This document shows, piece after piece, positions 1 to 59,026 of a stretch of 64,000 nt of DNA. The notes beneath the pieces are model-generated. The model ran no database searches and was not told where the DNA came from. It worked only from the letters and a program-made list of their open reading frames with translations. The stretch lies in IMG/VR virus record IMGVR_UViG_3300042518_000285, positions 1 to 64,000 of that record. The stretch is one strand, 5' to 3'. The position numbers and the translations under genes are program-made. How positions within the stretch are numbered: position 1 is the first letter of the stretch; each line of letters starts with the position of its first letter. This DNA comes from a virus.

Positions 1-614
1 TTCGCCAGCTTCTCGCTCATCTTGGATAGACATTCATGAAGCCGGGCCCACGCGTCTTGCATTGCTTCTGATAACTTGTTCTCATAAAACGATTCGTATT
101 GCGCTTTGAGTTCTTCCTTGTGCTGCTCGTTAATATCAATACGGAAGTCACCAACGTCAGGCACAGGCAGGAACACGAACCGGAACCGGAACTTATCGCG
201 CAACCTGTCCACGTTCGGGTACTCCTCGGAGTCGAACAAGTCACCCAACTGAAACGCCGCTGCGGATACAAGTGTTGGATAGTCAGTTAAGAACGCTTCC
301 ACCGCTTCATTGAACTGCGTCTCAAGGTCATTGAGTGTTGCCTTGTAGTCGAAGAAGTTCTTCATGGGTAGTAGGCGTGAGCCACCATCCGACCACGGCA
401 ACGTCTGCGCGTAGTGCCATGCACGAATCCCAGTAACAAGTTTCTGTAAATCGTCTAGCTTCTGCGTACCTGCCAGCAGTTTCTTATGATAGTTGCCAGC
501 CTTTGTCTTGGTACTCTTGGCGGCATCGATCTCTTCCGACACACGCTTGTCCTGCTTGCGGCCTGTCCACACCGAGATGTTCAGGTCAACCAACATTGCG
601 CTATTCTGAATCAT
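1..614 (-). CDS. DUF3150-like protein, C-terminus cut by window edge
   Basis: An open frame starts with ATG at 614 and runs without a stop through 204 codons to the left edge, so the C-terminus lies outside the window. The start has a good Shine-Dalgarno (GGAGAGTG) just upstream and an operator-like palindrome at 633-646. The product is soluble and rich in charged helices (for example residues beginning LNISVWTGRKQDK). It resembles the DUF3150 family, whose members are often encoded beside MoxR ATPases and VWA proteins. That context, with VWA and MoxR genes directly upstream in the same operon, supports the assignment more than any motif does. Molecular function unknown. Confidence 0.72.
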   Translation of the reverse strand, partial: MIQNSAMLVDLNISVWTGRKQDKRVSEEIDAAKSTKTKAGNYHKKLLAGTQKLDDLQKLVTGIRAWHYAQTLPWSDGGSRLLPMKNFFDYKATLNDLETQFNEAVEAFLTDYPTLVSAAAFQLGDLFDSEEYPNVDRLRDKFRFRFVFLPVPDVGDFRIDINEQHKEELKAQYESFYENKLSEAMQDAWARLHECLSKMSEKLA

Positions 615-632
615 GGCACTCTCCTTAATTTA

Positions 633-646
633 TTAACACGTGTTAA
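633..646. promoter_or_regulatory. Palindromic operator-like site 1 (TTAACACGTGTTAA)
   Basis: A perfect 14-bp dyad of the repeated family TTAACA-NN-TGTTAA, 18 bp upstream of the start at 614. It overlaps the last codons of the VWA gene, which ends at 643. Confidence 0.7.
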
Positions 647-1845
647 TTAATACGAACCGTCTTACCAATTGCACTCACCTCATCCGACGTGATACCCCAT
701 AGCGTCGGGCAAGGCCAGTTCTCACCCCAGTCACCGCCCACATACCCATCGGTCAAGATGACGGCACACTCTGCCTTGATCTTCTTGTCGTTGATGTACT
801 GCGGTATGCAGCTTGGCGATGTACCTCCACCACCTCTAGGCTTGGTACTACTCAACAGCGCACCCAGTTGGTCTTGCTCATACTTCTCGTGCTGCGCGAT
901 GCGAGTATCCCAATACAGCACGTCGATACCCTCGGGCTTCACGTTCTCACAGATGCTGCGGATCTCGCCCAAGAACTGACTGATCTCGTCGCTACCAATA
1001 GAGCCTGACATATCGATAGCCACCACGATGCGACCGACCGACTCACCGATCAAGCTAGGCATGTAAACATCTTCACCTATCCACCGCCGAGACGGACGAC
1101 GCCATGTCGATTCATCCTTGTCCATACAGAATGACGTAACGAACTCACGCAGTGCCTGACGCCAATCAACCTTCGCTTCCAACGCTTCCTTGATCTCACG
1201 TGGCATGTTGCCTTTCATCTTGCCAGCGAGTATCGAGCCTTGGCGGAGAGCCTGATCAATGTCACGTGCTAGAACTTCTTTCTCTTCGCCGCTCATCTCA
1301 TCAGCGCCGTCCCAGTCGTGGTCATCCAACGATGGCGTATCATCTACTGGTACATCACGCCCCACCTGATCGCCCTTGGTCTTGACATGCACCGAGCCCT
1401 TGTCACATTGTTGCTTCAAGTCGTTAAACACACGCTGCGAATCCCAGCCCCGATACTTCGGATCAAGCAAGCCACAGTCAGGCAACTTCACATACTGATC
1501 TGTCGGATCTGAATCGTCGATCATCAGGTTAATCACATAGTCACACGCCATGTTTGCCAACTGCGCATGCTCTTTGTATAGATGCTTCCACATGGTTAGA
1601 TGTCGGAACGCCTTGTGCAAGTTCTCGTGCAGGATCAACGCACGTAGCTCGGGTTCTGACAACTTGTCTGTGAACGCACGACCATACTTCACGTTGCGAC
1701 CATCCGTACATGCAGTCTGCACATCATCCTCCACACTTGTTTTACCAAGCATGAAGACGCCTGAATACAGACAGTAGTTCGGGTGTTTCATGAGCCACAC
1801 ATGTGCTCGTTGCACACGCTGCTCGGCAGATAACTTTGTAGCCAT
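643..1845 (-). CDS. VWA-domain protein with N-terminal HExxH metallopeptidase-like domain (DUF2201 type)
   Basis: 400 residues. The N-terminal domain carries the zincin motif H73-E-N-L-H77. The C-terminal von Willebrand A domain has a complete metal-ion-dependent adhesion site: D278-x-S280-x-S282, T342 in a GGGGTS loop, and D366 in LTDG. This two-domain layout is that of the DUF2201/VWA family, whose members pair with MoxR-type AAA+ ATPases. The VWA domain would bind partner or substrate through Mg2+ and the ATPase would remodel it. The acidic linker (residues 165-190) is typical. The MoxR gene lies 24 bp upstream and the DUF3150-like gene downstream. The ribosome site AGGAG is inside the palindrome at 1849-1862. 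Whether the HExxH site is an active peptidase cannot be told from sequence. Confidence 0.88.
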   Translation of the reverse strand: MATKLSAEQRVQRAHVWLMKHPNYCLYSGVFMLGKTSVEDDVQTACTDGRNVKYGRAFTDKLSEPELRALILHENLHKAFRHLTMWKHLYKEHAQLANMACDYVINLMIDDSDPTDQYVKLPDCGLLDPKYRGWDSQRVFNDLKQQCDKGSVHVKTKGDQVGRDVPVDDTPSLDDHDWDGADEMSGEEKEVLARDIDQALRQGSILAGKMKGNMPREIKEALEAKVDWRQALREFVTSFCMDKDESTWRRPSRRWIGEDVYMPSLIGESVGRIVVAIDMSGSIGSDEISQFLGEIRSICENVKPEGIDVLYWDTRIAQHEKYEQDQLGALLSSTKPRGGGGTSPSCIPQYINDKKIKAECAVILTDGYVGGDWGENWPCPTLWGITSDEVSAIGKTVRIN

Positions 1846-1848
1846 TTA

Positions 1849-1862
1849 TTAACTCCTGTTAA
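1849..1862. promoter_or_regulatory. Palindromic site 2 with embedded Shine-Dalgarno
   Basis: Plus-strand TTAACTCCTGTTAA. On the coding (minus) strand it reads TTAACAGGAGTTAA, then TAA and the ATG of the VWA gene. The AGGAG ribosome site forms the centre of the dyad, so the same bases serve as palindrome and ribosome binding site. Confidence 0.7.
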
Positions 1863-1869
1863 TTTGTTA

Positions 1870-2958
1870 TCAGAACAACCACTGGTTTTCCAACGCCCAG
1901 TCCTTGAACTCCTTGTTCATCACACAGAACGACTGCTTGTCGGATGACTTCATCACGCTTGTTGCGAACAGGGCTTGCCACTCCTTGTCCATACGTTTCA
2001 GGTAGTGCATCCATTTGTCTAGCGTGTCCTTGGAAACACGTGTCACCGCAGAGAACACCAAGATACATTTGGCAACCGTGTCCTCAGGTAGCTTGGCATT
2101 TTTCGGATCGTTCAATATCGCATCCCATGATGGCAACTTGTCCACCACAGTGAAGAACGCTTGCATGTCCCGCGCCGCACTCTCACCGATAGTCCCAGTC
2201 AGCAGAGATATAGTCAGCGCATCACCTAGTTCACTACGTTGTTTGGCAATGAACGACGCCTTCTCCAAACTTCTTGGTGTAACCACCGCACCGCTACCGG
2301 CCCGCGTAGGGTTGAAGATATATACGTTCTCTTTCTGCGACAGATCGGTGTAGCTTGCTAGTGCATGCGGGAACTGCTTGACCCACGCAATGATTGTCGG
2401 ATCAACGTCGTTACCAATTGCCCACTCGATCCACTCATCTGCATCAGGCTTACGCACAGTCACCAAGCACACACGATTCCGAGCATGCGCTTCCAACATG
2501 TCACCCACACCATCTGACATCAAGTTGGTAGTGCCAAACACAATCGATCCCTCAGGCAGGTAGTGGTCACCAATGCGATGTTCTAGCATCAAGGTCAACA
2601 GCACATTCTTGACCGCCTTCATTGCCTTGCCAATCTCGTCAAGCATCACGATCACCGGCTTGCCCTCGTGCATCTTGAACCGTGCGTTCGGTGCGAACTT
2701 CGTGACTTTGTTAACACCTGTTAACCCGTTCTCCACCACCTCGGTGTATGGCAGGGCAAAGTCACCCAAGTCCAGCAAGGTACAGTCGATGTACGCAATG
2801 GCATACTCGGGATACTGCTTGGCAAGAACTTTCAGCATGGAGGACTTGCCAATCCCCGGCTCACCTTGACCGATCACCGTCACATCACGCCCCACCTGCC
2901 CGATAGCTTTCGCAAACTCAATAAGCGATACGGACTGACCAAAGTTGATTGCACTCAT
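1870..2958 (-). CDS. MoxR-family AAA+ ATPase
   Basis: 362 residues. Walker A is at 32-40 (GEPGIGKSS) and Walker B at 103-108 (VIVMLDE), followed by a sensor-like segment with TTN (FGTTNLMSDG). The family works as a ring-shaped chaperone-like ATPase that acts on or with VWA proteins. The next gene downstream encodes exactly such a protein, so the two likely form one complex. It is the first gene of its transcription unit, with a perfect sigma70 promoter at 3010-3038 and a GGAG ribosome site. Codons 79-84 (LTGVNK) are made by a copy of the repeated palindrome at 2711-2724. MoxR-VWA pairs are known mainly from cellular genomes, and their role in a phage is not established. Confidence 0.9.
   Translation of the reverse strand: MSAINFGQSVSLIEFAKAIGQVGRDVTVIGQGEPGIGKSSMLKVLAKQYPEYAIAYIDCTLLDLGDFALPYTEVVENGLTGVNKVTKFAPNARFKMHEGKPVIVMLDEIGKAMKAVKNVLLTLMLEHRIGDHYLPEGSIVFGTTNLMSDGVGDMLEAHARNRVCLVTVRKPDADEWIEWAIGNDVDPTIIAWVKQFPHALASYTDLSQKENVYIFNPTRAGSGAVVTPRSLEKASFIAKQRSELGDALTISLLTGTIGESAARDMQAFFTVVDKLPSWDAILNDPKNAKLPEDTVAKCILVFSAVTRVSKDTLDKWMHYLKRMDKEWQALFATSVMKSSDKQSFCVMNKEFKDWALENQWLF
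2711..2724. promoter_or_regulatory. Palindromic site 3, inside the MoxR gene
   Basis: TTAACACCTGTTAA, a perfect arm match to the family. It lies inside the coding region about 240 bp after the start and encodes L-T-G-V-N on the minus strand. It is not next to a start codon, so it could act as a roadblock site rather than on translation initiation. Confidence 0.6.
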
Positions 2959-3009: not shown

Positions 3010-3038
3010 ATTATAACATAATAGTTACCCTATGTCAA
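3010..3038 (-). promoter_or_regulatory. Perfect-consensus sigma70 promoter for the MoxR-VWA operon
   Basis: On the minus strand, TTGACA (3038-3033), a 17-bp spacer and TATAAT (3015-3010), both hexamers perfect. Transcription should start near 3003, about 45 bp before the MoxR start codon. The 84-bp gap 2959-3042 holds nothing else. The sequence just upstream of the -35 element (ATAC before TTGACA) recurs at the promoter near 54314. Confidence 0.85.
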
Positions 3039-42989: not shown

Positions 42990-45900
42990 ATGATTATCAA
43001 TCTGCCGAAGCTAGGGCCGGTACGTTTTGATGACAACCTAACGGAAGCGCAACTCAACGCACGGGTTAACGAGTTAGCCAAAAAATACGATTTCAAAGTT
43101 CCTACCCCTGAGTTTGGGCTAGGGGAGACTTTTACGCGTGCCGTAAAACGCGGGACAAAACAACTTGGCATCCTTGGGGGCGACGTTCTCCCCGCTATGG
43201 TCGGTAAAGGTCTTGGTTTTGAAGATTACGCTGCCAGACAAATGGAAGAAGCTGCGGTGTCCCAGCAAGAGATTGCTAGGCAGCGCCCGCCTATTTTCGA
43301 ATCCTACAAACAAGTTGAGTCGCCATATCAAGCACTACAGTTTGGTATAGAAGTTATTGGCGAACAGATTCCAAACATCGCCACGTCGCTCATACCCGGC
43401 TTTGGGTTGGGGGCAGTAACTGGTCGTGCTGCGTTAACTTCAACAGGTAAAGCATTAGCAACACAAGCTGCCGAACGTGGTCTAGCGGGCGAAGCCGCTA
43501 CCGCATTTGTAGCCGAGGGCATGAAACGTGCCGCCCCGCAGATTGCTGCTAAAGCGCAGACAGGTCAGAACGTCGGTATATTTTTAGGCTCCTACGCCCA
43601 GAACGCTCCTGAAATCTTCCAGAACATCGTCCAAGAAACTGGGCAGATGGAAGTTGGTACGTCCCTGCTATTCGGTGCAGGTGCTGCTGCTTTAGATTCC
43701 ATATTACCTGCGCAACTTGCAAGGCAGTTAACTGGCCCAATGAAGGCCGGTATCGTAGAGAAAGTGCTAGAGAAATCTGGCATGGATCGTGGGATATTGC
43801 GTAGCACTACTTCCGGCTTGATCAAGGGCACTGCGGGCGAAGGTCTTACTGAAGGCGCACAAGAAGCACTAAGCATCGCTGCTGAAAAGTTTGTTGCCGA
43901 TAACCCTCAAGTCTTTGGTAGTAAAGAATGGGATCGGATCATGGAAGCCAGCGTTCGCGGTGCGATTGCTGGTGGTGGGTTCGGTGTTGTTGGCGGTTCA
44001 GTTGAGCGCATGCGTGAAAGAGCGGCAGACTTACGTGCTCAAGCCGAACAAGCCGAACGTGAGCGTCGTATCGAGGATGCGGCTCGTCTGCGCAAAGAAG
44101 TAGAAGACGCAGAACAGCAAATAGCTGAGATGGAGCGGCATGTTGCTGGAAGGGATTCTGAAAAAGAACAGGGGCGATTAGCGGAGATGGAGTTAGGTCC
44201 AGCTTCCCGTCTCCCCGAAGAACAAATACGACGATTTGAAGCGCTCGCTGCCGGTAAACCCGCTGAGTTTTTTGAACCTCAAAAAACTGCTAAGAGAGCC
44301 GCAGAAAGTGCCAAGAACAAACTAGGTGGCAAGCAACTGGAGCTGTTCGGGCCAGAAGGTAAACTAACTAAAGAAGCTGAGAAAGCCGCAACCGCTGATG
44401 AAAAGCGTGCGGTAAACGTCGCTCGCCAACAAGCCAAGAAAGAAGCAGCGGAGCTAAAGCAGTATCAAGACAGCCTGAAGAAGTTCTTAGGGGCTAAGCA
44501 ACTTGTGCTGCCCGGCATGTCGCCAGAAGAGGTCGCTGCCGCTCAGAAACAACAAGCCGAGCTTGAGGAACAGATTAAAACCACTGGGCAGGGCGACTTG
44601 TTTACGGGCATGCCTGCTGCTCCTAAAACGACTGATGAAGAAGCAACAAAAGCATTAAAAATATCGCCACAACCTAAACCTGAAGAGTTTGCTAATTCGC
44701 CCATAGAAGGATACACGTTCGAAATTCCGGGGGCTAAGGCTTCTTTAATTCATGATGCGGAAAAAAGTCCAAACATATGGAAAGTAGCTAGACTACGTGC
44801 CGCAAAGCCGGGGCAGGGTGCGGGTTCAGAATTATTAAATAAAATTGTTGATTGGGCGGATGAAAATAACGCAACCCTAACTCTCATTGCGGCGGCGGAT
44901 ACCCCGGAAGGAAAAAAATTATCGCAAGAGAAGTTGGTTGAATTTTATGAGCGAAGAGGTTTTGAACCGGACGAACAAGCTCGTAGAAGAATAGAAGCAG
45001 GAGTGGAGTACAACACTCTTGTTCGATACCCAAAAACTAAACCGGGGCAAATTGATACTACTGCGCCCGTAGAAGAAGCTATTGCCGAGCCTACCAAAGT
45101 AGAAGCACCTACTGGGGTAGAGGGTACTATCATCAGTAATACCAAGGAAGGGTTAGCCGCTCTTGGTAAACAACTTGGTATTGGTCGTACGGCAAAGATA
45201 TTACGTCCTGATGGCCCACTGGCTGGCAAAGATCTTTCTGATCCTGCACAGGCTGCTGAAGTTAGGCGCGTGTTGGAGGCGTATGCTTCTGGTAAGCCCG
45301 CTGAAGGCGCGGCATCTAAGATTGAAGAATTCCTACTGCGGCCTGAGTTCGAAGCCGCGCCAATGGAGGTGCCAAGTGAGCCAACTGCACAATTTGACAT
45401 CGGAAGAAGTGAGCCTAGCGTTCCAAGTGATATCACTGATGGAGCAGAGCAACTTGGAGATCGAGGTGCCGGAGAGCTTGCAGAACCTATCAGCACAGGA
45501 TTGGGCGAGACTGGACCTGCTGCTGGAGATATTAATGTCGGAGAAGAAGCTGCTGGGCGTCCACTAGGCGTCAAAGAAACCAAAGATGTAGCTAGAGCCG
45601 AAGCAGCTACAGAAGAGGCGGTGCGTCAGCAAGCGGACTTTGTTACTAAAAATGACGAGCGCACAAACAATATCCTGACTGGTCTGCTACGTGAAGCGGC
45701 TGCTGCCGAAGGTATTGATCCTAAGTTTCTACCGTCTGAAGACCTGCGCGGTACACCAGAACATTCGTATTTGCGTCTGCCTAGCCTGATCAATGAGTAT
45801 CTACGGCTTCGTGACATTCTGGGCATACCCCCAACGACTCCTGCTGAACGGGCGCAAGCGGCACGCAACCAGCAAGAGTTTGAAATTATCCGTGATGCCA

Positions 45901-48900
45901 TCCTGCAAAGCGACCCTAACATGCCTCAGTTCTTACAGAACATGGAGGCTGCGACCCCGGCGCAACGAGAACAAGTGTTGTCGCAAATTAACCGTGAAGC
46001 GGTTGCTCAGTTTGCACCGGTTATCGAGAAGCGCATCGCAAGCCTAAAGCTTGAGGAAGAAGAGCGAGAAGCAGCTAGACCCAAAGCTGAGCCTACCGAA
46101 GGTAGTTTAGATCGACTTGCTGCAATCAAAGCCGCATCTGAAAAAATGTCAGGTGAGGTTGCAGCGACCGGTAAAGAAGCGGAACGTAATACAAAATCTA
46201 TTTTAAAAGCTTACGAAAAAAAGTTCGGTAAAAAGTTGTTCCTGCCCGTGCATCGTGGACCTGACTTGTCCGACGCGGGCCGCGCACTGGTTGAAAGTGG
46301 CGACCTAAAAGGTGTTATTGATTACCTCAGAAATTCAGTTAAGAGCAAAGTTGTACAGCAGATTCTTAACAAGATCAAAACACTCAACCTTGGCACTAAG
46401 ATTGTTGTCGGGCCGGTTGAAGGCAATCAGGCTGGCTCTTTCGACCCGCGCACTAACACCATAACCATCAACCCCGAGATGGGGATGAACGAGCACACGC
46501 TGCTGCATGAACTCATGCACGCTGCCATATCCCATGTGCTACGCAACCCTAACCTGCCAGTCACCAAGCAGCTAACGTCGTTGTTCACCCAGATCCAGAA
46601 CCAGATGGGTGCGGCGTACGGTGCCCAAGACTTGCAGGAGTTTGCTGCCGAACTGGTAAGTAACCCTGAGTTCCAAGCTCTGCTCAAGACCATCAAGACC
46701 CCTAAGAGTCAGAACATGTTTGTGCGGTTTATGCAAACACTGGCGGAGTTTTTTGGGTTTGCGAAAGGCACCAACGCCTACGACAAAGGCTTGAAGTTGG
46801 TCAGCGACGCTATCGATATATCCACAGATATTATTCCTTCCCCTGCCGATGTATTGTTCATGGGCACTCCTAACGGCGCAGCGATGGGTCTTGGTGTGGT
46901 TGGGCGTATTGGGCAGACGATGCCTTCGCTCGCTGGTAGGACTATAGAGGAAACCAAAAACTACTTGTCGAATATGCCGGGAGATACACAATCCCTCGCA
47001 ATGGGGCTTCTGCGTTTGGACAACATCAACACCATCTACGGTAAAGAACTACCGTCTCTCCAGAAACTTCTTGATGCATTGGAGAAACGTAATGGCATGC
47101 AGGAAAAGTACATCAAGCGCATCAACGAGAACTATAAGCGCTTTTTGGATGTAGAAAGCCGCCACCCGCAAGCCATGCAGCGTATGAACGACATGGCGAT
47201 TGACGCACGACGCGAACAAGTCGATATACTCGACCCAAAGTTTAAGCCAAGCGCGACGCAACTGGCGCAATACAACCGACTGAAGAGCGTCTACAACGGA
47301 CTGCCCGATGATGTTAAAAAAGTCTACAGAGACATCCGTGGTGAATACGATGCGGCTATCAACGAGTACGAAGATATTCTGCTTAACTCCGTCCAAGACC
47401 CGTCGGTACGTCGTAAATTAAAAGCTCAGTATGAAGCACGTAAACGGCAGGTTGGCTATATCCCGTTCCTGCGCCGAGGCGACTTCTGGGTTGAGTACGA
47501 TGAGAATGGTGAGCGTGCAGTACAAGCGTTCCAATCTCAACGTGAGCGTCAGATGTTTATCGACAGCCAACTCAAAGGTAAGTCGTACAAGATTTATAAG
47601 AACATAAACGAAGCGACATTCAATCAGAGCACACTGCCTTCCTCGTCGTTTATCGTCGGGTTGATGGGCGAGTTGAACAAGCAGGGTGCGAGTGACCAGC
47701 TCAAGCAGAACGTATATCAGTCATACCTAGCGTTATTCCCAGCCGAGTCTTTGGCAAAGAACTTCATGAAGTCCGAAAATTTTCTGGGCATGGAGCGAGA
47801 CATCGTGCGCGGGTATGGCGAGACGATGATCAAGTGGGCACGCAAGCTGTCATCCAGTAAGTACAACCCTGAGATTGACCGTGCGTTGAGCGAAATAGCC
47901 ACACAGGGAAGTGAAGCATCTACCAAGCCTGACGGTGCTGGGGCTTACGCCGCTGCTCAGAATGTAATGGATCAGGCAAGCTTCCTACATAATCCAACAT
48001 ACGGAAAACTTGTTAGCGCCACCACAACACTTAGCTACTTTGCTCACATCGCGGGTAACGTCTCGTCGGCTCTAATTAACTTGACCACGCTTCCGATGTT
48101 CTCTTGGTCAATTCTTGGTGCCAAGTTTGGGTTTGATCAGTCTTTCCTTGCTCTGTCGTCAGCTTCCAAAACCACAATCGACTATATCTTTAACAATAAG
48201 ATACCAACTAAGTACGCTAAGTTGTTTGATGTGCTGAATGATCACGCGCAGTTGGAACACACGATGGCCCGTGAGGTGCTGGAAGGGCGTAGACAAACAA
48301 CTTCTGAGTTCATCGGTATCAAGGCTCGGATCATGGACGGCGTGTCCATCCCGTTTAGTAAAGCAGAAGTACTTAACAGAGGCGCAACGGCTATTGCTGC
48401 TTACGATCTGGCACGGGCTGGTAGTTCAGCGATGGGTATAAAGCCCATGAACGAACAGGATGCGATCCGCTATGCCTTGAACACCGTCAAGGAGATCAAC
48501 ACTTCTGGCCTGTCCGCAACTGCTCCGCGCTTTATGCAGCATCCGGCTGGGCGTGTGTTCTTTACGTTCAAGTCGTTTGTGTGGAATAGTGCATTCGTGG
48601 TGGGTCGTGCCTTTCATCAGGCCGTAAAAGGTGAATCCCCTGCGGTACGCAAAGAAGCCTTCCGGCAACTGATTGGTATCTATGGCATGGCGATGGCGTT
48701 TGCTGGTATCAAAGGTCTGCCGTTCATGGGGGCTGTATCTACACTGGCAACCATTATCAATTCACTGCTTGGTGACGATGATGAGCCGTATGACTTCGAT
48801 GTCATGATGCGTAGCTGGACAGACGAGTTGTTCTACAAAGGTCTGGTCAACTACGCTACCAATCTGGAAATCGCTAATCGTGTTGGTGTGGCTAACGACC

Positions 48901-49514
48901 TAATCTTCCGCGATGACCCCAAGGGGGTTGCAGAAAATGGCTACGTATTGACCGCCATACAGCAAGCATTTGGTCCTGCCGGGGCATTTGCAGCAAGTGT
49001 GGAAGATGGCGCTAAGCAGGTGTCGGAAGGTAATATCGTGCGCGGTATCGAGGCGATGTTGCCTACATTCTTGAAAAATATACTCAAGGCGACGCGCTAT
49101 GCTACCGAAGGTGTCACAAACCGTAAAGGCGAGTTAATTATAGATGACATCTCCAACTACAACGTAGTTATGCAAATCGTCGGGTTCTCTCCTGCCAACT
49201 TGTCTAATGTGTACGAAGAGATTGGCATGAAGAAGGACTTTGAGCGCAAAGTAATGGCACAGCGTAGCAAGCTGCTCAATAAGTACGACATGGCACGTCG
49301 GGCTGGAGACTCAGATTTGATGACAGAGGCACTAGAAGAGATCGGCGAGTACAACGAGAAGCGCAAAGATCCTAAGGCCAAGATCACTCAGGACACATTG
49401 AATCGATCAGTCAGGGCACGAGAGGCTGCTGAAAGAGATAGCGTCAACGGCGTTCGGTTCAATAAGAACCTAAGAACTGAGATTGACGATCTGTTGGAAG
49501 AGTACGAGGAGTAA
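42990..49514 (+). CDS. Giant ejected polyvalent-type protein, 2174 residues, with GNAT and zincin domains
   Basis: Order of parts: a Gly/Ala-rich possibly membrane-active N-terminus (about 50-340); a coiled coil (about 340-500); a GNAT-like domain (about 572-680, with LRAAKPGQGAGSELLNKIVDWA); an acidic linker; and a zincin-like domain with H1173-E-L-M-H1177, followed by QEFAAELVSNPEFQ as likely third ligand. Helical regions follow, then a C-terminal membrane-associated part (about 1660-1960, with FMQHPAGRVFFTFKSFVWNSA). The layout fits the phage polyvalent proteins, delivered with the DNA and thought to protect it in the new cell. Last late gene, ending at a strong terminator. Confidence 0.8.
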   Translation: MIINLPKLGPVRFDDNLTEAQLNARVNELAKKYDFKVPTPEFGLGETFTRAVKRGTKQLGILGGDVLPAMVGKGLGFEDYAARQMEEAAVSQQEIARQRPPIFESYKQVESPYQALQFGIEVIGEQIPNIATSLIPGFGLGAVTGRAALTSTGKALATQAAERGLAGEAATAFVAEGMKRAAPQIAAKAQTGQNVGIFLGSYAQNAPEIFQNIVQETGQMEVGTSLLFGAGAAALDSILPAQLARQLTGPMKAGIVEKVLEKSGMDRGILRSTTSGLIKGTAGEGLTEGAQEALSIAAEKFVADNPQVFGSKEWDRIMEASVRGAIAGGGFGVVGGSVERMRERAADLRAQAEQAERERRIEDAARLRKEVEDAEQQIAEMERHVAGRDSEKEQGRLAEMELGPASRLPEEQIRRFEALAAGKPAEFFEPQKTAKRAAESAKNKLGGKQLELFGPEGKLTKEAEKAATADEKRAVNVARQQAKKEAAELKQYQDSLKKFLGAKQLVLPGMSPEEVAAAQKQQAELEEQIKTTGQGDLFTGMPAAPKTTDEEATKALKISPQPKPEEFANSPIEGYTFEIPGAKASLIHDAEKSPNIWKVARLRAAKPGQGAGSELLNKIVDWADENNATLTLIAAADTPEGKKLSQEKLVEFYERRGFEPDEQARRRIEAGVEYNTLVRYPKTKPGQIDTTAPVEEAIAEPTKVEAPTGVEGTIISNTKEGLAALGKQLGIGRTAKILRPDGPLAGKDLSDPAQAAEVRRVLEAYASGKPAEGAASKIEEFLLRPEFEAAPMEVPSEPTAQFDIGRSEPSVPSDITDGAEQLGDRGAGELAEPISTGLGETGPAAGDINVGEEAAGRPLGVKETKDVARAEAATEEAVRQQADFVTKNDERTNNILTGLLREAAAAEGIDPKFLPSEDLRGTPEHSYLRLPSLINEYLRLRDILGIPPTTPAERAQAARNQQEFEIIRDAILQSDPNMPQFLQNMEAATPAQREQVLSQINREAVAQFAPVIEKRIASLKLEEEEREAARPKAEPTEGSLDRLAAIKAASEKMSGEVAATGKEAERNTKSILKAYEKKFGKKLFLPVHRGPDLSDAGRALVESGDLKGVIDYLRNSVKSKVVQQILNKIKTLNLGTKIVVGPVEGNQAGSFDPRTNTITINPEMGMNEHTLLHELMHAAISHVLRNPNLPVTKQLTSLFTQIQNQMGAAYGAQDLQEFAAELVSNPEFQALLKTIKTPKSQNMFVRFMQTLAEFFGFAKGTNAYDKGLKLVSDAIDISTDIIPSPADVLFMGTPNGAAMGLGVVGRIGQTMPSLAGRTIEETKNYLSNMPGDTQSLAMGLLRLDNINTIYGKELPSLQKLLDALEKRNGMQEKYIKRINENYKRFLDVESRHPQAMQRMNDMAIDARREQVDILDPKFKPSATQLAQYNRLKSVYNGLPDDVKKVYRDIRGEYDAAINEYEDILLNSVQDPSVRRKLKAQYEARKRQVGYIPFLRRGDFWVEYDENGERAVQAFQSQRERQMFIDSQLKGKSYKIYKNINEATFNQSTLPSSSFIVGLMGELNKQGASDQLKQNVYQSYLALFPAESLAKNFMKSENFLGMERDIVRGYGETMIKWARKLSSSKYNPEIDRALSEIATQGSEASTKPDGAGAYAAAQNVMDQASFLHNPTYGKLVSATTTLSYFAHIAGNVSSALINLTTLPMFSWSILGAKFGFDQSFLALSSASKTTIDYIFNNKIPTKYAKLFDVLNDHAQLEHTMAREVLEGRRQTTSEFIGIKARIMDGVSIPFSKAEVLNRGATAIAAYDLARAGSSAMGIKPMNEQDAIRYALNTVKEINTSGLSATAPRFMQHPAGRVFFTFKSFVWNSAFVVGRAFHQAVKGESPAVRKEAFRQLIGIYGMAMAFAGIKGLPFMGAVSTLATIINSLLGDDDEPYDFDVMMRSWTDELFYKGLVNYATNLEIANRVGVANDLIFRDDPKGVAENGYVLTAIQQAFGPAGAFAASVEDGAKQVSEGNIVRGIEAMLPTFLKNILKATRYATEGVTNRKGELIIDDISNYNVVMQIVGFSPANLSNVYEEIGMKKDFERKVMAQRSKLLNKYDMARRAGDSDLMTEALEEIGEYNEKRKDPKAKITQDTLNRSVRAREAAERDSVNGVRFNKNLRTEIDDLLEEYEE

Positions 49515-49545: not shown

Positions 49546-49787
49546 TTCTCATTGAAATGTGAAGGAGAAGAAGAGTGCGAGGGCATTATATCCTCAACTC
49601 TCCAGACCCGTAAACCGTACTTGCCTCGCTCCACCACTTGTTTACAAATAACTTCGACTTTTAGCCGCTTGGCTTCGGTTTCTACAAACCGTTGCGTGAG
49701 CTTGCGATCCAAACAAGGCACGAAGAACGACGTGCCCGGCTCGAATTTATCCCACTCAATCAATAGTGGCAGTCCCAGTATCTTCAT
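49539..49787 (-). CDS. Small protein, 82 residues, unknown
   Basis: Begins inside the end of the primase-helicase gene (32-bp overlap). The sequence MKILGLPLLIEWDKFEPGTSF then VPCLDRKLTQRFVETEAKRLK and VVERGKYGLRVWRVED looks like a small alpha/beta fold. Its stop codon lies in the flank of the terminator. Last gene of the replication operon; no family recognised. Confidence 0.65.
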   Translation of the reverse strand: MKILGLPLLIEWDKFEPGTSFFVPCLDRKLTQRFVETEAKRLKVEVICKQVVERGKYGLRVWRVEDIMPSHSSSPSHFNEKN

Positions 49788-52641
49788 CTTTTAGCAACAC
49801 TGTTTCGCTGAAGTACTCCAGCTTGGACGTATCAAACCAAATAGCACTGACCGGTGCTTGCATGTTGGCAACAGTCCCTGCGGTCATACGCTTTTTCTTG
49901 ATGTCCACAAACGCCTTGCTCTTGCGATAAGGGATCAAGGACTCCTCAAAGTTCATGAACAGCTTGGCGCAGTCGTCTCGATAGACCTTTGTGACAACAA
50001 ACAATAGCTTGGTGTCTGGCTCATACCGGATGGTAAGTGCCCCGCGAGGTTCCCGAATTGGGCCAAATTCAACCCCCGTACGCTTGTCGCGGTTGCCGTT
50101 GATGACCAGAATCTCATGGAAGTGTCGCTGCAAAAACCCACCAAGGAAGTCATCTGCGTCCAGCATAAGCTCTTTGGTGCGGGTACGAGTCTCCTTGACC
50201 AAGTTAACGCCAAAGTCAAACACCGGCTTGATCGGTATGTCGTGCAAACCAAGTGTTTTGGCAATCGCCCCACCTGTTATGCTTATTGTGACCATAGCTG
50301 ACCAGTACCGTTCTGTGTTCGTGATACCAGCAGCCGCATCTACCTTGGCCTCAAACTCTTCTATCTTCTGCATGACCATCGGAAGTTGGCCTAGTACCGC
50401 CTTCGAATACGGCTCGATAGCATGCCCGTAGTTGGATAGCAGCTTGCCAAAATGATTTCTTGACCAGTGCGGATCGTTGTGCGTATCCGGCTTTACGTTG
50501 ATCTCCAAGATACGATTCAGTTCACCATCGGGAAAGCCCTTTATGTTCAGCAGCATGTCGGGCACTGACCGGTTGCTCGAAGTAACCAACCCACTAGAAA
50601 ACTTGGTGTGGTTTAGTCGTTCAGCGTTCTCGTGCCGACTCATCCGGTTCTTGCCCCGCCCAGAAGTCACGTCATAAATTTGTTGTGACATGTGATCCGG
50701 CTGCATGTTGGTGATCTCGTCCATCGTCACGCAAAGGTTTTGCAGGGTTCCGAACCGCTGCATCCGTGCGTTGTATGTATCTTTAGGCGATAGCATTAGC
50801 TCTTTGGGTCTGCCGTAGATACTGTTGATAGCGTGTAGGATGGTTGTCTTGCCCGAACCAGACTCACGGCTCATCAGGTTAACGAGAAACCCATCAAGTG
50901 CGCCCTTTGCAACGAATGGCATCAGCAACGTGCCAAACCCCATGAAGAAAGAAAAAGCTCTGCCTTCCATCCCCGGTCTGCCGTACGCGTTGATGACATC
51001 CTTCCAAACATGAAAGTCACCTTTGGGGGTGAACAACGGCACCAGTGGTAGGGTCGGTGCGGATGGGGGGCTGTAACTTACTCCTGTTGCTCTGATCTCT
51101 CGGTCGCCTACGATGATTGCAGACTGATCATCTACCCAACCAAACTGCTTATGCGCCTTCTCTGCTTGCATTGACATTTGCAACTCCTCTACCCATTTCG
51201 CCACGTACCACATGAGCGTGTCTTGCTGCTTGCTAAGCGCAGCGATGCCGTGTGATGCGATGATTTCTCTGAACTTATCTTTAGCTAGTGCCGATGCCAA
51301 GGGTATGATGAACTCGCGCACTCCATCTTTTGGCAGATGTAGGCGTAGCAGCAAGGTCTCACCCAAGTCGGGGTCGGTCATGCGCTTGACTACATAGAAG
51401 TCGTACGGATAAACAACTTCATCTATATCGTTACCATCTTTGTCTTTGGTGTGAACGAACACCCCGCCGTTCTTGCCACGGAAAAACGGGAACGGAAACT
51501 TCGGGATGACGTATTCTTTAAGTTCTTTAGTCTGCGCTTCGACACCAATGACGGTGCTTTGTTCTTCCGTAGCCTCGACGATCTCTCGCCCCAACTGAAT
51601 AGGCGACGTGATCTTTTGCTGGCATCCTTCGCAACCTGTGGGATTAAGTTTCTTAAAAGTCTCGCAGGTGTACGGACCTTTTGTCTCGTTTGCTTTCTTC
51701 TCGGTATGCTCGAACGAATACCCCGGATACCCCTTGCTGATAACATGTATTGCTTTGTCGCGGTCTATGCACTGCTGGGCAATAGATAGACCGGCTCTCC
51801 ACAACGGCTCCTCGATTGTGGCTTGGTTGTCGTAGATATTGACGATCTGTGCGCAGCCGTTACCCTCAACCGACTTGATCAGGATTGTCTTGAATCGTGA
51901 CTGACTCGCACCGATCAAAGCTAGGGTCGTTGCATCAAGTGGTCGCTTGCCAAACTCCTTGGCGACTGTTTCTAGTACAGCGTCCGATGGCTCTAGCAGT
52001 TCCTTTATGCGTTCGTTCGGAACCAGCGGTGCCAGATACAGAATCTCAACCGGTATCGGATTGGTCGGATCTTTCAGGTGATTGGTTTCAGGAACGCGCA
52101 ACACCCGCGCCGCATCTGCTGGCACGGCGTAGTCAATATCAAACTTGTGTGTGGTGCAAAGGCTCTTGAGCTGCTCGGCAAATGGCTTCCACTCCTCTTT
52201 GGTAAGAGGCTCTTCCAGAATCCAGTACACGTGCGCACCGCGCCCAGACCTAAGAATCGTCGGCTTCGGTAGCCCAGTGGCTTTGCAGAAGTTCTTGAGT
52301 GCTACCAACCCATCATCTAGCGTGGCGTAAGGCTTCCCCTCGCCACAATCAAGGTCTAAGAAAAACGACTTGAGCGCAATCGCGTTGGTTGCGTAGCGTC
52401 CGTTCTTGGTCGCACCGAACTTAGCCAGTGCAAAGAAAGAATTGAACCCGCCGTTTTGCAGATCGTCCGCTTGGCTGCTGAGAACGTCGATACTGTTCGC
52501 AAACCGCTGCCGAACAACGTCTTTGTACTTGTCCTCGCCGTCCTCTTGGACTAGCTCTTTTTTATTACCCCAGTTGCAGTAGTGCTCACCTTCTTCAAGA
52601 GGTGGTAACACCAATGCAAAAAATTCTTTGCGAGAGAGCAT
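49756..52641 (-). CDS. Primase-helicase (archaeo-eukaryotic-type primase plus DUF927-like helicase)
   Basis: 961 residues. The N-terminal primase domain has FFLDLDCGEG (about 92-101, the DxD metal site) and SGRGAHVYWIL (about 127-137). A Cys cluster follows (CETFKKLNPTGCEGCQQKI, about 323-341). The C-terminal helicase has Walker A SRESGSGKTT (about 590-600), Walker B LCVTMDE and a GLVTSSNR sensor segment. It combines RNA-primer synthesis and duplex unwinding in one chain, as in many phages, and forms the replisome with the polymerase at 57203. Confidence 0.85.
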   Translation of the reverse strand: MLSRKEFFALVLPPLEEGEHYCNWGNKKELVQEDGEDKYKDVVRQRFANSIDVLSSQADDLQNGGFNSFFALAKFGATKNGRYATNAIALKSFFLDLDCGEGKPYATLDDGLVALKNFCKATGLPKPTILRSGRGAHVYWILEEPLTKEEWKPFAEQLKSLCTTHKFDIDYAVPADAARVLRVPETNHLKDPTNPIPVEILYLAPLVPNERIKELLEPSDAVLETVAKEFGKRPLDATTLALIGASQSRFKTILIKSVEGNGCAQIVNIYDNQATIEEPLWRAGLSIAQQCIDRDKAIHVISKGYPGYSFEHTEKKANETKGPYTCETFKKLNPTGCEGCQQKITSPIQLGREIVEATEEQSTVIGVEAQTKELKEYVIPKFPFPFFRGKNGGVFVHTKDKDGNDIDEVVYPYDFYVVKRMTDPDLGETLLLRLHLPKDGVREFIIPLASALAKDKFREIIASHGIAALSKQQDTLMWYVAKWVEELQMSMQAEKAHKQFGWVDDQSAIIVGDREIRATGVSYSPPSAPTLPLVPLFTPKGDFHVWKDVINAYGRPGMEGRAFSFFMGFGTLLMPFVAKGALDGFLVNLMSRESGSGKTTILHAINSIYGRPKELMLSPKDTYNARMQRFGTLQNLCVTMDEITNMQPDHMSQQIYDVTSGRGKNRMSRHENAERLNHTKFSSGLVTSSNRSVPDMLLNIKGFPDGELNRILEINVKPDTHNDPHWSRNHFGKLLSNYGHAIEPYSKAVLGQLPMVMQKIEEFEAKVDAAAGITNTERYWSAMVTISITGGAIAKTLGLHDIPIKPVFDFGVNLVKETRTRTKELMLDADDFLGGFLQRHFHEILVINGNRDKRTGVEFGPIREPRGALTIRYEPDTKLLFVVTKVYRDDCAKLFMNFEESLIPYRKSKAFVDIKKKRMTAGTVANMQAPVSAIWFDTSKLEYFSETVLLKDEDTGTATID

Positions 52642-54285: not shown

Positions 54286-54314
54286 ATTATGGGCACCGCA
54301 GTTTACATTGTCAA
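54286..54314 (-). promoter_or_regulatory. Strong sigma70 promoter for the SSB/primase unit
   Basis: Minus strand TTGACA (54314-54309), a 17-bp spacer and CATAAT (54291-54286), one mismatch in total. The -35 overlaps the stop codon of the SNF2 helicase gene. Transcription should begin near 54279 and include 53872-49539. Confidence 0.8.
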
Positions 54315-55873
54315 GTATCTTCAACCACATTTTTATAAAGATCGATGAGTCGTGAATGAATATCAACTTTCTCTGACAACATCTTGTAGATACGATGCTC
54401 GACTGGGCTGCCTTGCAGATGCACAACCGTACATGGGTTGCGTTGCCCAGCGCGATGCACTCGTGCATTAGCTTGTAGGTAAGTTTCAATAGATGTAATC
54501 GGACCCCACCAGACAACGACGTTTGCAGCATGAAGTGTTACACCGTGCGCAGCAGCTTGTGGTTGAATGACTAACACGTGTGGGCTGTCTGTCGTTTGAA
54601 AGTTGGCAAATATTTCCGTGCGTTTAGTTGCACTGATGCCGCCATGAATTACCTCAGTGCTAATTCCGTTTGACTTTAACTCTTCGGCAATTATGTCAAT
54701 GGCATGTTTGAACGGCGCAAACACAATGACCTTGTGGCTTGCCTCTTCTATAACTTCCAGCAGCGCGTTCAGGCGACTCTTGGCATCAAACGCCACCACC
54801 TCTCCAGTATCGGCATACACTGCACCGCACGACAGTTGTAATAACTTGTTGAGATTTGCCGCTGCATTGACAGTCGTGATCTCTTCTCCTGCGGCGACCG
54901 TCATCATGTCTCTTCGGATCAGCTCGTAGAATTTCTTTTGTTGCGCCGACAGCGGAACATCTCTGGTTACGTACGTCATGTCGGGTAAGTCAAGGCACTC
55001 TTCTTTTGTGAATCGTATGGCTGGCTGCAACACATCGTGGACTAGCTTTTCTGATTGCGGCTTGGGTATCCACTTAAACTGTGTAATGCGTTGCATTACC
55101 ATGTCGCGGAACGCGCCATAGAACTTAGGTACTCCGCTCGGGTTTATTAATTTCGCAAGGCCGTACGCATCGGTGGGCGATTGCGACGCAGGGGTTCCGG
55201 TCAGCATCCATACCCAGCTTGTAGGTTTGATCAGCCCGGCTAGGGTCTTCCAACGCTTTGTCTGAACATTTTTGTAGGCGTTAGCTTCATCCACCACAAT
55301 TAAATCAAAGTTGGCTTTCTCAACTTCTTCCTTGACGATCTCTAGCCCGTCGTAGTTGATGATCACAAACTCTGCGGAACTGTTTATCGCTTCAACTCGT
55401 TTCTCTTTGTTGTAGCTGTGGGCGATAGCACATGTCCTGTGCATGGCGAACCGGAATAAGTCCGTCTCCCACGCTGGCTGCATGATGGACAGGGGACACA
55501 ACACCAACACCCGCTTGATGACACCCTTGTTCAGTAAGTAGTCCGCTGCCCAGATAACGCTCGATGTCTTACCAGTACCCTGCTCGTTGAAACAGAACGC
55601 TCGTTTGTGCAGGGTTAGGAATGATGCGGTTTCTTTCTGGTGGTCGAACGGGCGGTACAGTCCGGGCCAGTCATACTGATTTTTGATTGGGGACGGTACG
55701 TTCTTGATCCGCAGATTCTTCAGTACCTGAGCTTCTTCAAGCCCCCACTTCACCAGCACTTCGCCGGTATCTAGCACCTTGGCTTTTGGTATGACGGTTG
55801 TGATGCGGTTAGGTTCTTTAACGCGCAGCAGCAATGCCCTGTTGTCGATGATTTGCACTCTATCTCCAGACAC
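54311..55873 (-). CDS. SNF2/SF2-family DNA helicase
   Basis: 520 residues: motif I FNEQGTGKTSS (about 94-104), motif II VVDEANAYKN (about 192-201), motif III MLTGTPASQSP (about 220-230), and motif VI QANARVHRAGQRN (about 479-491). The arginine-rich HRAGQ is typical of SNF2-like enzymes. It likely translocates on DNA during replication or recombination. The upstream gap 55874-55932 holds a small AAGTGG/CCACTT hairpin. Confidence 0.9.
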   Translation of the reverse strand: MSGDRVQIIDNRALLLRVKEPNRITTVIPKAKVLDTGEVLVKWGLEEAQVLKNLRIKNVPSPIKNQYDWPGLYRPFDHQKETASFLTLHKRAFCFNEQGTGKTSSVIWAADYLLNKGVIKRVLVLCPLSIMQPAWETDLFRFAMHRTCAIAHSYNKEKRVEAINSSAEFVIINYDGLEIVKEEVEKANFDLIVVDEANAYKNVQTKRWKTLAGLIKPTSWVWMLTGTPASQSPTDAYGLAKLINPSGVPKFYGAFRDMVMQRITQFKWIPKPQSEKLVHDVLQPAIRFTKEECLDLPDMTYVTRDVPLSAQQKKFYELIRRDMMTVAAGEEITTVNAAANLNKLLQLSCGAVYADTGEVVAFDAKSRLNALLEVIEEASHKVIVFAPFKHAIDIIAEELKSNGISTEVIHGGISATKRTEIFANFQTTDSPHVLVIQPQAAAHGVTLHAANVVVWWGPITSIETYLQANARVHRAGQRNPCTVVHLQGSPVEHRIYKMLSEKVDIHSRLIDLYKNVVEDT

Positions 55874-56229: not shown

Positions 56230-56539
56230 CTTGCGCTCCCCACTTGATTATGCTTGCAACCTTCTCGGCCTCAAGTATTAGCTTCATGGCGTGTAGCAAC
56301 TCGCTACGTTCTACCCCACCAAAGATTTCAACATCCACAGCCGTTACGTCCTCGACTTTGATGTATTGATTATCCTTCCAACGCTGCTTTATGTACAGAT
56401 TTATGGTGGCACCACCTGCGTCCTCTAGACTGAGTACCGTTCTTGCGCTGTTACCACTGTCCTGATCACTTGTGTAACCAACATCCATAAAAGCAGGGGG
56501 ATCATCTGAGTCTGACAGCCGGATAACTAGATCGTTCAT
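56219..56539 (-). CDS. Hypothetical protein, 106 residues
   Basis: Acidic N-terminus (MNDLVIRLSDSDDPPAFMD) and a beta-rich middle (GATINLYIKQRWKDNQYIKVED), then a helical end. ATGA overlap with the nuclease gene upstream. No domain recognised. Confidence 0.68.
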   Translation of the reverse strand: MNDLVIRLSDSDDPPAFMDVGYTSDQDSGNSARTVLSLEDAGGATINLYIKQRWKDNQYIKVEDVTAVDVEIFGGVERSELLHAMKLILEAEKVASIIKWGAQDAL

Positions 56540-57216
56540 CGGTATTCTCCTTTGCCATTATGAATACAATCCTTGACGGGGCACCACTGCCCACACGTGA
56601 AGTTTGGGCGCGGGTTCCATACCCCCAGCTCCACCGCTTTTTCCAATCTGTTAACGTCTTCTATCCACTTCGTCCAGTACATACCGGCGCTGTCTTTCTG
56701 GTACTCGGTGGTCACGAAGTCGTTTGCCACCACGAACAACAGCCCTGCCTTGATCTTTTTTACCTGCGGGAAATGTTTAAATAAAGCTAACGACAGAATC
56801 TCCAACTGCTTGGTGTCGGCGTACTTGGCGGACTTGCTTGTTTTGTAATCCACCACGTAGGCTTTGTCCCCCCGCAGCACGATCAAGTCAGCGATCCCTC
56901 TCCACCAAACATCTTTTGCACCGAACTTGCAGGGTTGCAGATCCCTAGTCAAACCAAGGCGTTGTTCGCAAAGCTTGTCCCCATCCATTGCTCGGATGCG
57001 CTCCAGCGGGGCAAGCAAGGTGCTGTACTTTGGTGGGATGGGGGTGCCATCTCTAATGTAGTCCTCGGCTGCTTTGTGTACGTCCAAACCAAATCTCAGA
57101 TGTTCCTGCGGCGGCTCGACGACATCCTTCTTTACCTTGAGTCGGTAATACTTGTGTGGACAAAGCTTGAACATATCAAGCGACGAGTAAGACCAAGCAA
57201 CTTTAGACTGCGCCAT
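56536..57216 (-). CDS. PD-(D/E)XK nuclease with Cys cluster (Cas4/RecB-like)
   Basis: 226 residues from ATG 57216 (MAQSKVAWSYSSLDMF), which has a GGAG site; an in-frame start 24 bp upstream is rejected. Nuclease core: D110 (RGIADLIVL), D123-x-K125 (VVDYKTSKS) and Q137. Four cysteines in Cas4/AddB style, C19 near the N-terminus and C208-x3-C212-x4-C217 at the end, suggest a 4Fe-4S cluster. Probably a 5'-3' exonuclease in phage recombination or host-DNA breakdown. Overlaps the polymerase end by 14 bp. Confidence 0.85.
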   Translation of the reverse strand: MAQSKVAWSYSSLDMFKLCPHKYYRLKVKKDVVEPPQEHLRFGLDVHKAAEDYIRDGTPIPPKYSTLLAPLERIRAMDGDKLCEQRLGLTRDLQPCKFGAKDVWWRGIADLIVLRGDKAYVVDYKTSKSAKYADTKQLEILSLALFKHFPQVKKIKAGLLFVVANDFVTTEYQKDSAGMYWTKWIEDVNRLEKAVELGVWNPRPNFTCGQWCPVKDCIHNGKGEYR

Positions 57217-59026
57217 AGTTATCTCCAACCCCAGCTTCACAGTTCAACGGAAGAGTAGCCGCCCAATCTGGACGCCACTGCATACAAGTTTCCACGTATT
57301 TTTTAGCATCACGAGCCTCTTCCAACGGAGCGATACACGCCACAGCATCATGCACGGTGAGCACCACTTTGTACTGCTTGGCGATCTTGATCATCTGCTC
57401 TGCAATTACACATCTAGCAACAGCTTGGCAGATGTTCTCAACCACCTTACCACCATAAATTTTCACGAGTCCCTTGCGGGTCTTGTATTGGAACTGCTCT
57501 TTACCCTCGGGGTCATATATACGCTCAAGCCCGTCGTACCGCTGCCACAACCCACTAGGTAGCAGGAACCCTCGCTCAGTCGGGTCGAACGTAACCGCAT
57601 CCACCGCGCCGAACGGCGCTGCATTACCACTGATGATGGCACCCAAACATGTATGTGCTTGCCGCCACAACGCTGGAATCTTGGCGTAGGTCTGGCGATA
57701 CACTGCGATGATCCGCTTACATTCCTCCAGCGGGATGTCCACGCCAAATATTTTTAATTGCGCTTGGAACTTCTCAGCACCCATGCCGTAGCCAGCACCA
57801 AGAATCGTGGTCTTCCCCACGAACCGTTCGTCTGCACTAATGCTCTCAACTTCTTTGCCGTAGATAGCGGACGCCATGATCTTGTACACGTCCTCGCCCT
57901 TGTCGAACGCCTCGACCAAATCATCCTGCCCTGCCAGCCACGCAACTGTCCGCGCTTCGATCTGCGATGAGTCCGAGTCAATAATGACGTGCCCTTCCGG
58001 TGGCTTGATCGATGACTTCAACTTACCTGCGTTCTGCCCTCGGCTTGGCAGGTTCTGTAGGTTGATCTTGTCATCCCCACCCCAACGCCCAGTATGTGCG
58101 GCGTAGTACTTGATGGGTACGGGCAGCTTGCCGCGATTGGAAATATCGATAAACCGTTGAGTGCGAGTCTCTTCCAAAGTTGTTTTCGTACCAAGCCGCG
58201 CAGCCACTAGCGCTTGTACACGTGGGTCAGGATGCTTTGCCAACTCCTTGAAGTCTTCATCAGTCTTGGCAAACGCCCACGCTTCCTTGCCCGTCCGCGC
58301 ACTTATCTTGCGAGGTGGGTCAACCCCCAGACTGATAAGCAGTTCTGCAAACTTGTCGTTGGACATCAACGTATCTTTGTCTGATGCCGCCGCTGCCAGA
58401 AGCTTTTCTTTCTTGGTCTTAACGTCTATAAGATGCTGCTCCAACATAGCCGTATCCAACTCCAGCTCTGGTTCTACAAACATCTTTAGCGTTGTGTCGA
58501 TAACCTTAAGTTCTTTCTTAGGAAAAGACTTCATCAGAATACTAAATAAGGTGTGCGTCAAATCCACGTCGTTGCGACAGTACGCACCGTACTGCGCCAA
58601 CTCTTCTTCCGTGAAATCCACCCTGCGCTTACCCAGCGCGTTGATAACCTCGTCTCCCTTAGCACCGATCTGATAGCGTTCTACCAACGCTTTCAAGCTA
58701 CCTCCGGCATCCACGCCGTGCAGTGCGCGTGACATACAGAGCGTATCGAACCAGCCTTTGGGGGTGACGCCAAAGTGCCACGACAGAATGGCTCCATCAA
58801 ACATCGTGTTGTGTGCCAACACAAATGAGTTAGCCCAGTCGTACTGACGCAGATGCTTCCTGAGTTCGTCTTTAGTTCCAGAGAACCATGACGTTTCCTC
58901 GTCGTCAACCTTGATACCTACACCGATAACTTCAAATTTATCGTCACGTACGTATTCTTCGGTGGTCAATTTGGATAGGGAAAACTCTTTGTCGTAGTAC
59001 GTTTCAAAGTCTACGGTGAGTATCAT
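57203..59026 (-). CDS. Family A DNA polymerase with 3'-5' exonuclease
   Basis: 607 residues, no 5'-3' nuclease domain. Proofreading domain: D6-F-E8 (VDFETYY), HNTMFDGAILS and YCRNDVDLT. Polymerase motif A is DSDSSQIEARTVAWLAGQ. Motif B is RFVGKTTILGAGYG, where the residue equivalent to E. coli Phe762 is Leu409. Motif C is LTVHDAVACI, with Ala where Glu is usual (HDE). It overlaps the upstream 340-residue gene by four bases. Main replicative polymerase. Confidence 0.93.
   Translation of the reverse strand: MILTVDFETYYDKEFSLSKLTTEEYVRDDKFEVIGVGIKVDDEETSWFSGTKDELRKHLRQYDWANSFVLAHNTMFDGAILSWHFGVTPKGWFDTLCMSRALHGVDAGGSLKALVERYQIGAKGDEVINALGKRRVDFTEEELAQYGAYCRNDVDLTHTLFSILMKSFPKKELKVIDTTLKMFVEPELELDTAMLEQHLIDVKTKKEKLLAAAASDKDTLMSNDKFAELLISLGVDPPRKISARTGKEAWAFAKTDEDFKELAKHPDPRVQALVAARLGTKTTLEETRTQRFIDISNRGKLPVPIKYYAAHTGRWGGDDKINLQNLPSRGQNAGKLKSSIKPPEGHVIIDSDSSQIEARTVAWLAGQDDLVEAFDKGEDVYKIMASAIYGKEVESISADERFVGKTTILGAGYGMGAEKFQAQLKIFGVDIPLEECKRIIAVYRQTYAKIPALWRQAHTCLGAIISGNAAPFGAVDAVTFDPTERGFLLPSGLWQRYDGLERIYDPEGKEQFQYKTRKGLVKIYGGKVVENICQAVARCVIAEQMIKIAKQYKVVLTVHDAVACIAPLEEARDAKKYVETCMQWRPDWAATLPLNCEAGVGDNYGAV

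Follow-up and report, generated by a model that had tools for sequence, protein, structure and literature searches.

We analyzed positions 1 to 64,000 of the virus record IMGVR_UViG_3300042518_000285, which spans 64,980 bases; this 64,000-nucleotide stretch is referred to as the window. An earlier note, made from the letters of this DNA, had described three genes at one end of the window as an operon encoding a MoxR ATPase, a VWA protein with a zincin motif, and a DUF3150-like protein. Pfam and PHROG matches confirmed three contiguous minus-strand genes, a putative operon, which encode a MoxR-like ATPase, a zincin-VWA protein, and a DUF3150 protein. We refer to these genes as the trio. The features of the locus are as follows.

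1870 to 2958, minus strand: MoxR-like AAA+ ATPase, 362 amino acids (Pfam AAA and AAA_5; PHROG 1297; invariant catalytic residues)
643 to 1845, minus strand: zincin (HExxH) and VWA protein of the DUF2201 family, 400 amino acids (DUF2201_N, DUF2201; PHROG 1314; VWA fold match)
3 to 614, minus strand: DUF3150 protein, first 204 of 288 amino acids (PF11348; remainder at the other end of the record)
3010 to 3038, minus strand: sigma70 promoter of consensus sequence ahead of moxR, TTGACA-N17-TATAAT with TGn (sole 12/12 match in the record)
633 to 646, unstranded: palindrome TTAACACGTGTTAA ahead of the DUF3150 gene
1849 to 1862, unstranded: near-palindrome TTAACAGGAGTTAA (as read on the minus strand), which overlaps the VWA gene's ribosome-binding site
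2711 to 2724, unstranded: palindrome within moxR, in a variable loop, encoding LTGVN

The ATPase matched Pfam AAA (4.5e-06; 27.6 bits against a cutoff of 21.2), AAA_5 (22.8 bits, cutoff 22), and PHROG 1297, "ATPase" (1.2e-55), and fell below the cutoff of the classical MoxR model AAA_3 (15.9 bits versus 27). We therefore call it MoxR-like on the basis of AAA_5, its VWA partner, and its phage homologues, and not a classical MoxR protein by AAA_3. All 38 ATPases compared retain the Walker A lysine, the aspartate of Walker B, the asparagine of sensor 1, an arginine finger, and the arginine of sensor 2, and the second Walker B acid is glutamate in 25 of these homologues and aspartate in 13. The 400-residue partner combines an N-terminal DUF2201_N metallopeptidase domain (1.4e-29) with a C-terminal DUF2201 VWA domain (7e-13). 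We aligned 39 VWA proteins from the phage group, plasmids, and N4-like and jumbo phages, and the metal ion-dependent adhesion site (MIDAS) residues D278, S280, S282, T342, and D366 were kept in all 39, 38 had retained HExxH, and the N-x3-D pair after HExxH was invariant, in agreement with the intact MIDAS and zincin motif described before. Judged by these alignments, neither the ATPase nor the VWA active site shows any sign of decay. The structure model of the VWA protein, of low-to-middling confidence, matched a VWA fold, as the earlier note had expected, and this was the sole fold match among the trio. Sequence searches of the PDB with all three proteins gave no useful match. The names "HNH endonuclease" and "homing endonuclease" sit on many RefSeq phage records of the PHROG 1314 protein; we rejected "HNH endonuclease" as the name of this PHROG because its Pfam domains make the protein a DUF2201-family zincin-VWA protein.

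The window edge cuts the DUF3150 gene short, and the full length of its product, 288 residues, was obtained from the overlapping ends of the record. The protein scored 28.8 bits with PF11348 (27.7 in a second scan) against a cutoff of 24.9 and had no credible PHROG match. We found no mention of DUF3150 in the literature searched.

The trio is conserved together in related phages. The earlier note had taken separation of the three genes in such phages as grounds for abandoning its proposal, and we found them together in every relative with enough flanking DNA. A VWA-protein scan of IMG/VR yielded 42 loci (62 to 99% identity), and scanning with a DUF3150 alignment gave 359 relatives, from which 80 were kept. 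MoxR and VWA genes both lay upstream of DUF3150 in 79 loci, and the other 34 stop at a contig edge, with some contigs counted twice among these 79 and 34 loci. When loci were anchored on the terminase gene, moxR was present in all 22 whose upstream flank measured 5.8 kb or more, and the three anchored loci that lack moxR have just 4.6 to 5.3 kb of flank. Median identities were 81% for MoxR, 71% for VWA, 72% for DUF3150, and 78% for terminase, compared with 31 to 52% for the nearby early genes orf285, orf171, and orf63479. By these comparisons, the trio is part of the core of the phage group and not an accessory arms-race gene set. Close relatives at the DNA level were almost absent from the phage collection. 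Trees of the VWA and MoxR proteins gave a firm phage clade but no firm placement of it relative to the N4-like and plasmid proteins, where long branches meet, and we therefore claim no direction of transfer.

The perfect sigma70 promoter of the earlier note was confirmed as a 12/12 match with a 17-bp spacer and TGn, the only one in the record. Among 45 distinct relatives whose upstream DNA was long enough for a promoter scan, 34 had a 12/12 promoter with a 17-bp spacer at most 320 bp from moxR. The spacer length never varied in these 34 relatives, yet there were 27 different spacer sequences, and other 12/12 matches in the relatives numbered just 8 in 584 kb. Retention of the full match while the spacer sequence varies suggests that recognition by the sigma70 RNA polymerase of the host is under selection. 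The conserved, consensus host-type promoter also suggests that the trio is expressed early, which is consistent with the previous description of the module as regulated and probably early.

The pair of MoxR and zincin-VWA genes is already known in phages. The gp24 and gp25 genes of N4 (PHROG 1297 and 1314) are homologues of the window ATPase and VWA genes, adjacent or nearly so, and near replication genes. They are core genes of the N4-like phages (Schitoviridae) and are described as middle genes (PMC4193335), and the N4-like ATPase and VWA proteins are only 24 to 30% identical to those of the window. The phage records carrying the VWA protein numbered 695 and those carrying the ATPase 609, and in EcP1, LUZ7, and nACB1 the pair adjoins helicase and DNA polymerase genes. 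Jumbo phages carry MoxR with a metallopeptidase-vWA protein, and the authors of that work assign the pair to virion assembly (PMC7824862). The jumbo-phage proteins have the domain architectures of the window pair and have kept their active sites, but at the two jumbo-phage loci L129 and L215, DUF3150 was not found nearby, unlike in the window. In the annotated phage collection, phage-type DUF3150 was limited to Pag-Yong1 and two other records equal to it in length. Pag-Yong1 (L005, 3454 to 9899) has the trio in a plasmid-like order, followed by a gene that its depositors named AcrVA2. The ATPase and VWA proteins of Pag-Yong1 group with those of a Rhodovastum plasmid, so Pag-Yong1 represents a second lineage of trio-bearing phages, although the tree has long branches here.

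Similar gene sets are found on plasmids. A Burkholderiales-type DUF3150 was present on 41 plasmids, nearly all from Burkholderiales, and in the records listed by both searches the VWA gene directly adjoins it. The Burkholderiales plasmids examined also carry the ATPase, and all three proteins are homologous to those of the window (DUF3150, 30 to 32% identity; VWA, 26 to 33%; ATPase, 26 to 27%). The gene order on these plasmids is ATPase-DUF3150-VWA, compared with ATPase-VWA-DUF3150 in the window phage; the plasmid order was also found in 59/80 loci of genome contigs. Several of the Burkholderiales modules lie between PRTRC and type IV secretion genes, and such neighbors are a feature of that plasmid module and not of the phage trio.

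A more distant version is carried by pCAR1, where the consecutive ORF101 to ORF103 encode a CbbQ-type MoxR protein, DUF3150 (8e-92), and an HExxH-VWA protein. The DUF3150 of this type was matched on 1,118 plasmids, of which 969 are typed as conjugative. The pCAR1 and IncC-type module shares the domain grammar of the window trio (MoxR, DUF3150, and HExxH-VWA) but differs in its CbbQ-type ATPase, a larger VWA protein of another family, and a weak DUF3150 link. Phage DUF3150 matched the pCAR1-type proteins weakly by profile, over the N-terminal half (E value of 3e-4; probability, 39%), and this match and the modest Pfam score hint that the two types are homologous. The phage and pCAR1-type VWA families are probably homologous, a relationship that rests more on motif order than on score. 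On an IncC plasmid the order is ATPase-x-ssb-bet-exo-DUF3150-VWA, such that the module wraps ssb-bet-exo, and a Vibrio plasmid shows an IncC-like order without an annotated ssb. Genes of pCAR1 ORF100 to ORF103 were reported in 2009 to be conserved in R478, Rts1, SXT, and R391 (PMC2642839).

Cellular DUF3150 proteins gave zero matches with the phage profile, and matches came only with plasmid sequences. A divergent DUF3150 (L196 to L212; planctomycetes, deltaproteobacteria, and others) lies downstream of a CDC48-like AAA ATPase in 14/17 loci, at a distance of 0 to about 4 kb, and the remaining three loci begin near a contig edge. AAA+ ATPases lie near DUF3150 in almost every setting examined. 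Some of the divergent loci are near PRTRC-like ThiF/JAB genes, and the divergent loci do not have the MoxR-VWA pair. Plasmid pSYSA (L132, 10955 to 13233) has MoxR and VWA genes as a pair but no DUF3150, and the adaptation genes of a type I-D CRISPR system lie about 10 kb from the pair.

The two ends of the record (window 1 to 417 and record 64564 to 64980) overlap by 417 bp at 96% identity, and the differences are mostly silent in DUF3150. The genome is therefore probably circular or terminally redundant, and the overlap probably reflects a circular assembly that closed on two strain variants. Because the ends overlap, the trio does not sit at the end of the early block, as the earlier note had it; that placement was an effect of where the record opens. 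The trio lies upstream of the replication genes and heads a long leftward block, whose tightly packed genes cross the record ends into the following genes.

62743 to 63147, minus strand: small helix-turn-helix-like protein, weak candidate regulator of the palindromes (HTH_IclR, E value of 0.005, below cutoff; homologues in relatives)
62399 to 62740, minus strand: endonuclease or Hjc-like resolvase of the same leftward block (PHROG 93; Pfam Hjc)
57203 to 59026, minus strand: DNA polymerase, downstream in the leftward block (PHROG 17, 4.5e-92)
56536 to 57240, minus strand: exonuclease (PHROG 69, 2.4e-20)
54311 to 55873, minus strand: DNA helicase (PHROG 62, 2.6e-115)
49756 to 52641, minus strand: primase/helicase-like protein with DUF927 (PHROG 8841, 1.4e-23; Pfam DUF927)

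The rightward block ends with an open reading frame of 2,174 residues (window 42990 to 49514), and a Pfam scan of its first 670 residues gave zero matches over cutoff.

The palindromic sites noted previously resolve into a 14-bp sequence, TTAAC-N4-GTTAA, with 11 exact copies in the record, all confined to the leftward block. They lie at window positions 633, 1849, 2711, 3913, 4339, 4531, 4967, 5499, 62454, and 63244 and at record position 64290, and several are just upstream of a ribosome-binding site or overlap one. Exact copies were far in excess in the relatives (114 sites in 28 loci versus 0.4 expected), whereas a count allowing two mismatches showed no excess over chance, so the excess is limited to exact sites. 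The palindromes are common in one subgroup of relatives and absent in others, and locus L033 has eight TTATC-N4-GATAA sites in their place, with a similar core. The sites look like putative operators for a phage regulator that has changed its specificity, and the small helix-turn-helix-like protein is a weak candidate for that regulator.

We propose that the trio is an early remodelling machine for replication or recombination complexes of incoming mobile DNA, a reading to which we give about an even chance of being right. The three proteins would join into one ATP-driven machine made early in infection. The MoxR-like ATPase would form a ring, the VWA domain would dock on that ring and hold a target through its MIDAS metal, the zincin domain of the same protein would cut or handle the target, and the helix-rich DUF3150 protein would act as an adaptor that selects it. 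The likeliest target would be a DNA-acting protein complex, either one that replicates or recombines the incoming element or an obstructing host complex, and the machine would help mobile DNA to become established and be copied in a newly entered cell and would not build virions. We infer complex formation, the early timing, the role of DUF3150, and the substrate. In NorQ/NorD, a MoxR ring works with a VWA partner that holds the substrate via its MIDAS (PMC9976466). NorQ/NorD and RavA/ViaA resemble the trio in having a MoxR ring with a VWA partner and likely share its working principle (PMC9976466), but they are cellular enzymes with other substrates and without DUF3150. Since the trio adds a zincin domain and a helix-rich third subunit to a NorQ/NorD-like pair, it suggests a machine that remodels its targets, could also cut them, and has an adaptor of its own. 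We favor a role on DNA-processing complexes during establishment and replication on three grounds: the module also occurs on plasmids, which form no virions; it lies beside replication or recombination genes in phages and IncC-type plasmids; and it has a host-type promoter. Gene neighborhood supports this role only indirectly. We also entertain a broader idea, more tentatively and with somewhat less than even confidence, that DUF3150 is the constant adaptor of AAA+ machines on phages, conjugative plasmids, and probably SXT/R391-type elements, whose partner AAA+ and zincin-VWA subunits differ, and that such a machine lets replication or recombination begin by removing or remodelling protein complexes on the DNA that comes in.

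Several observations weigh against the proposed remodelling role. The DUF3150 structure model is weak (mean pLDDT [predicted local distance difference test score] of 68) and had no credible PDB match. The N4-like loci examined have no recognized DUF3150, unlike the window trio. The homologous ATPase gp149 of PA5oct (L215, 1 to 1114) carries the record note "ESI-MS/MS" (electrospray ionization tandem mass spectrometry), so this ATPase may be part of virions or attached to them. Transfer of SXT fell by no more than 10-fold when bet, exo, s067, s068, and s070 were deleted (PMC2791158). From synteny with IncC, s067 to s070 appear to include the DUF3150 and VWA genes, and if the deletions do cover the module, SXT can transfer without it.

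The PA5oct flag would fit a virion assembly chaperone-protease, in which the pair folds or processes structural or ejected proteins and DUF3150 is a scaffold or adaptor. This role was proposed for the jumbo phages, with p618/p892 of Acidianus two-tailed virus as a precedent (PMC7824862), and the N4-like phage RPP1 encodes virion proteins near its gp24/gp25 homologues (PMC4193335). However, the window trio has a consensus host promoter, precedes the replication genes, and is outside the structural block, the module also occurs on plasmids, which lack virions, and N4 gp24/gp25 are themselves called middle genes, and we consider a virion role unlikely. We regard as similarly doubtful the idea that the machine serves host takeover or counter-defense by dismantling a host complex, such as a defense system or the nucleoid, that harms incoming DNA. 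Likely early expression, the presence of the module on both phages and conjugative plasmids, anti-restriction or methylase genes among some neighbors, and the depositor-named AcrVA2 after the trio in Pag-Yong1 would all be in keeping with it. However, the trio is conserved like terminase, unlike most arms-race genes, the AcrVA2 name lacks Pfam support, and no window protein had a credible PADLOC match (no model was matched by the ATPase or the VWA protein, and DUF3150 had one negligible match to SspC, E value of 0.009). The suggestion that the module disarms defense thus gained no specific support.

The link to biological-conflict systems drawn in the earlier note also proved weak. The MoxR-vWA ternary conflict systems (VMAP; PMC7159879) resemble the trio in coupling MoxR and VWA proteins with a third protein, but VMAP and effector domains were not found in the window proteins. 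We rejected a VMAP-type reading, as the bpMoxR model scored the window ATPase at 11 bits against a cutoff of 27 and no scanned window protein matched VMAP. Highly improbable, in our estimation, is a role in metallocofactor insertion, with the pair loading metal into a phage or host enzyme like CobS/CobT or NorQ/NorD. Cellular MoxR-VWA pairs can do so (NorQ/NorD; PMC9976466), and the pCAR1 ATPase has a CbbQ_C domain; against this, CobS, CobT, and CbbQ_C domains were absent from the window proteins in the Pfam scan, and no metalloenzyme partner was evident in the contexts examined. A cobaltochelatase reading was rejected because the trio is without CobS/CobT domains in that scan.

We found no reported function for the phage MoxR and zincin-VWA genes or for the plasmid DUF3150 genes, and we did not find the phage trio with DUF3150, or its match to the plasmid modules, described before. 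The trio and the plasmid DUF3150 sets look like versions of one module, which joins two gene sets that had separately been filed as unknown. The module is strictly conserved, with a consensus host promoter, in a large group of uncultured phages, and these findings give cause to doubt that virion assembly is the role of the MoxR and zincin-VWA pair.

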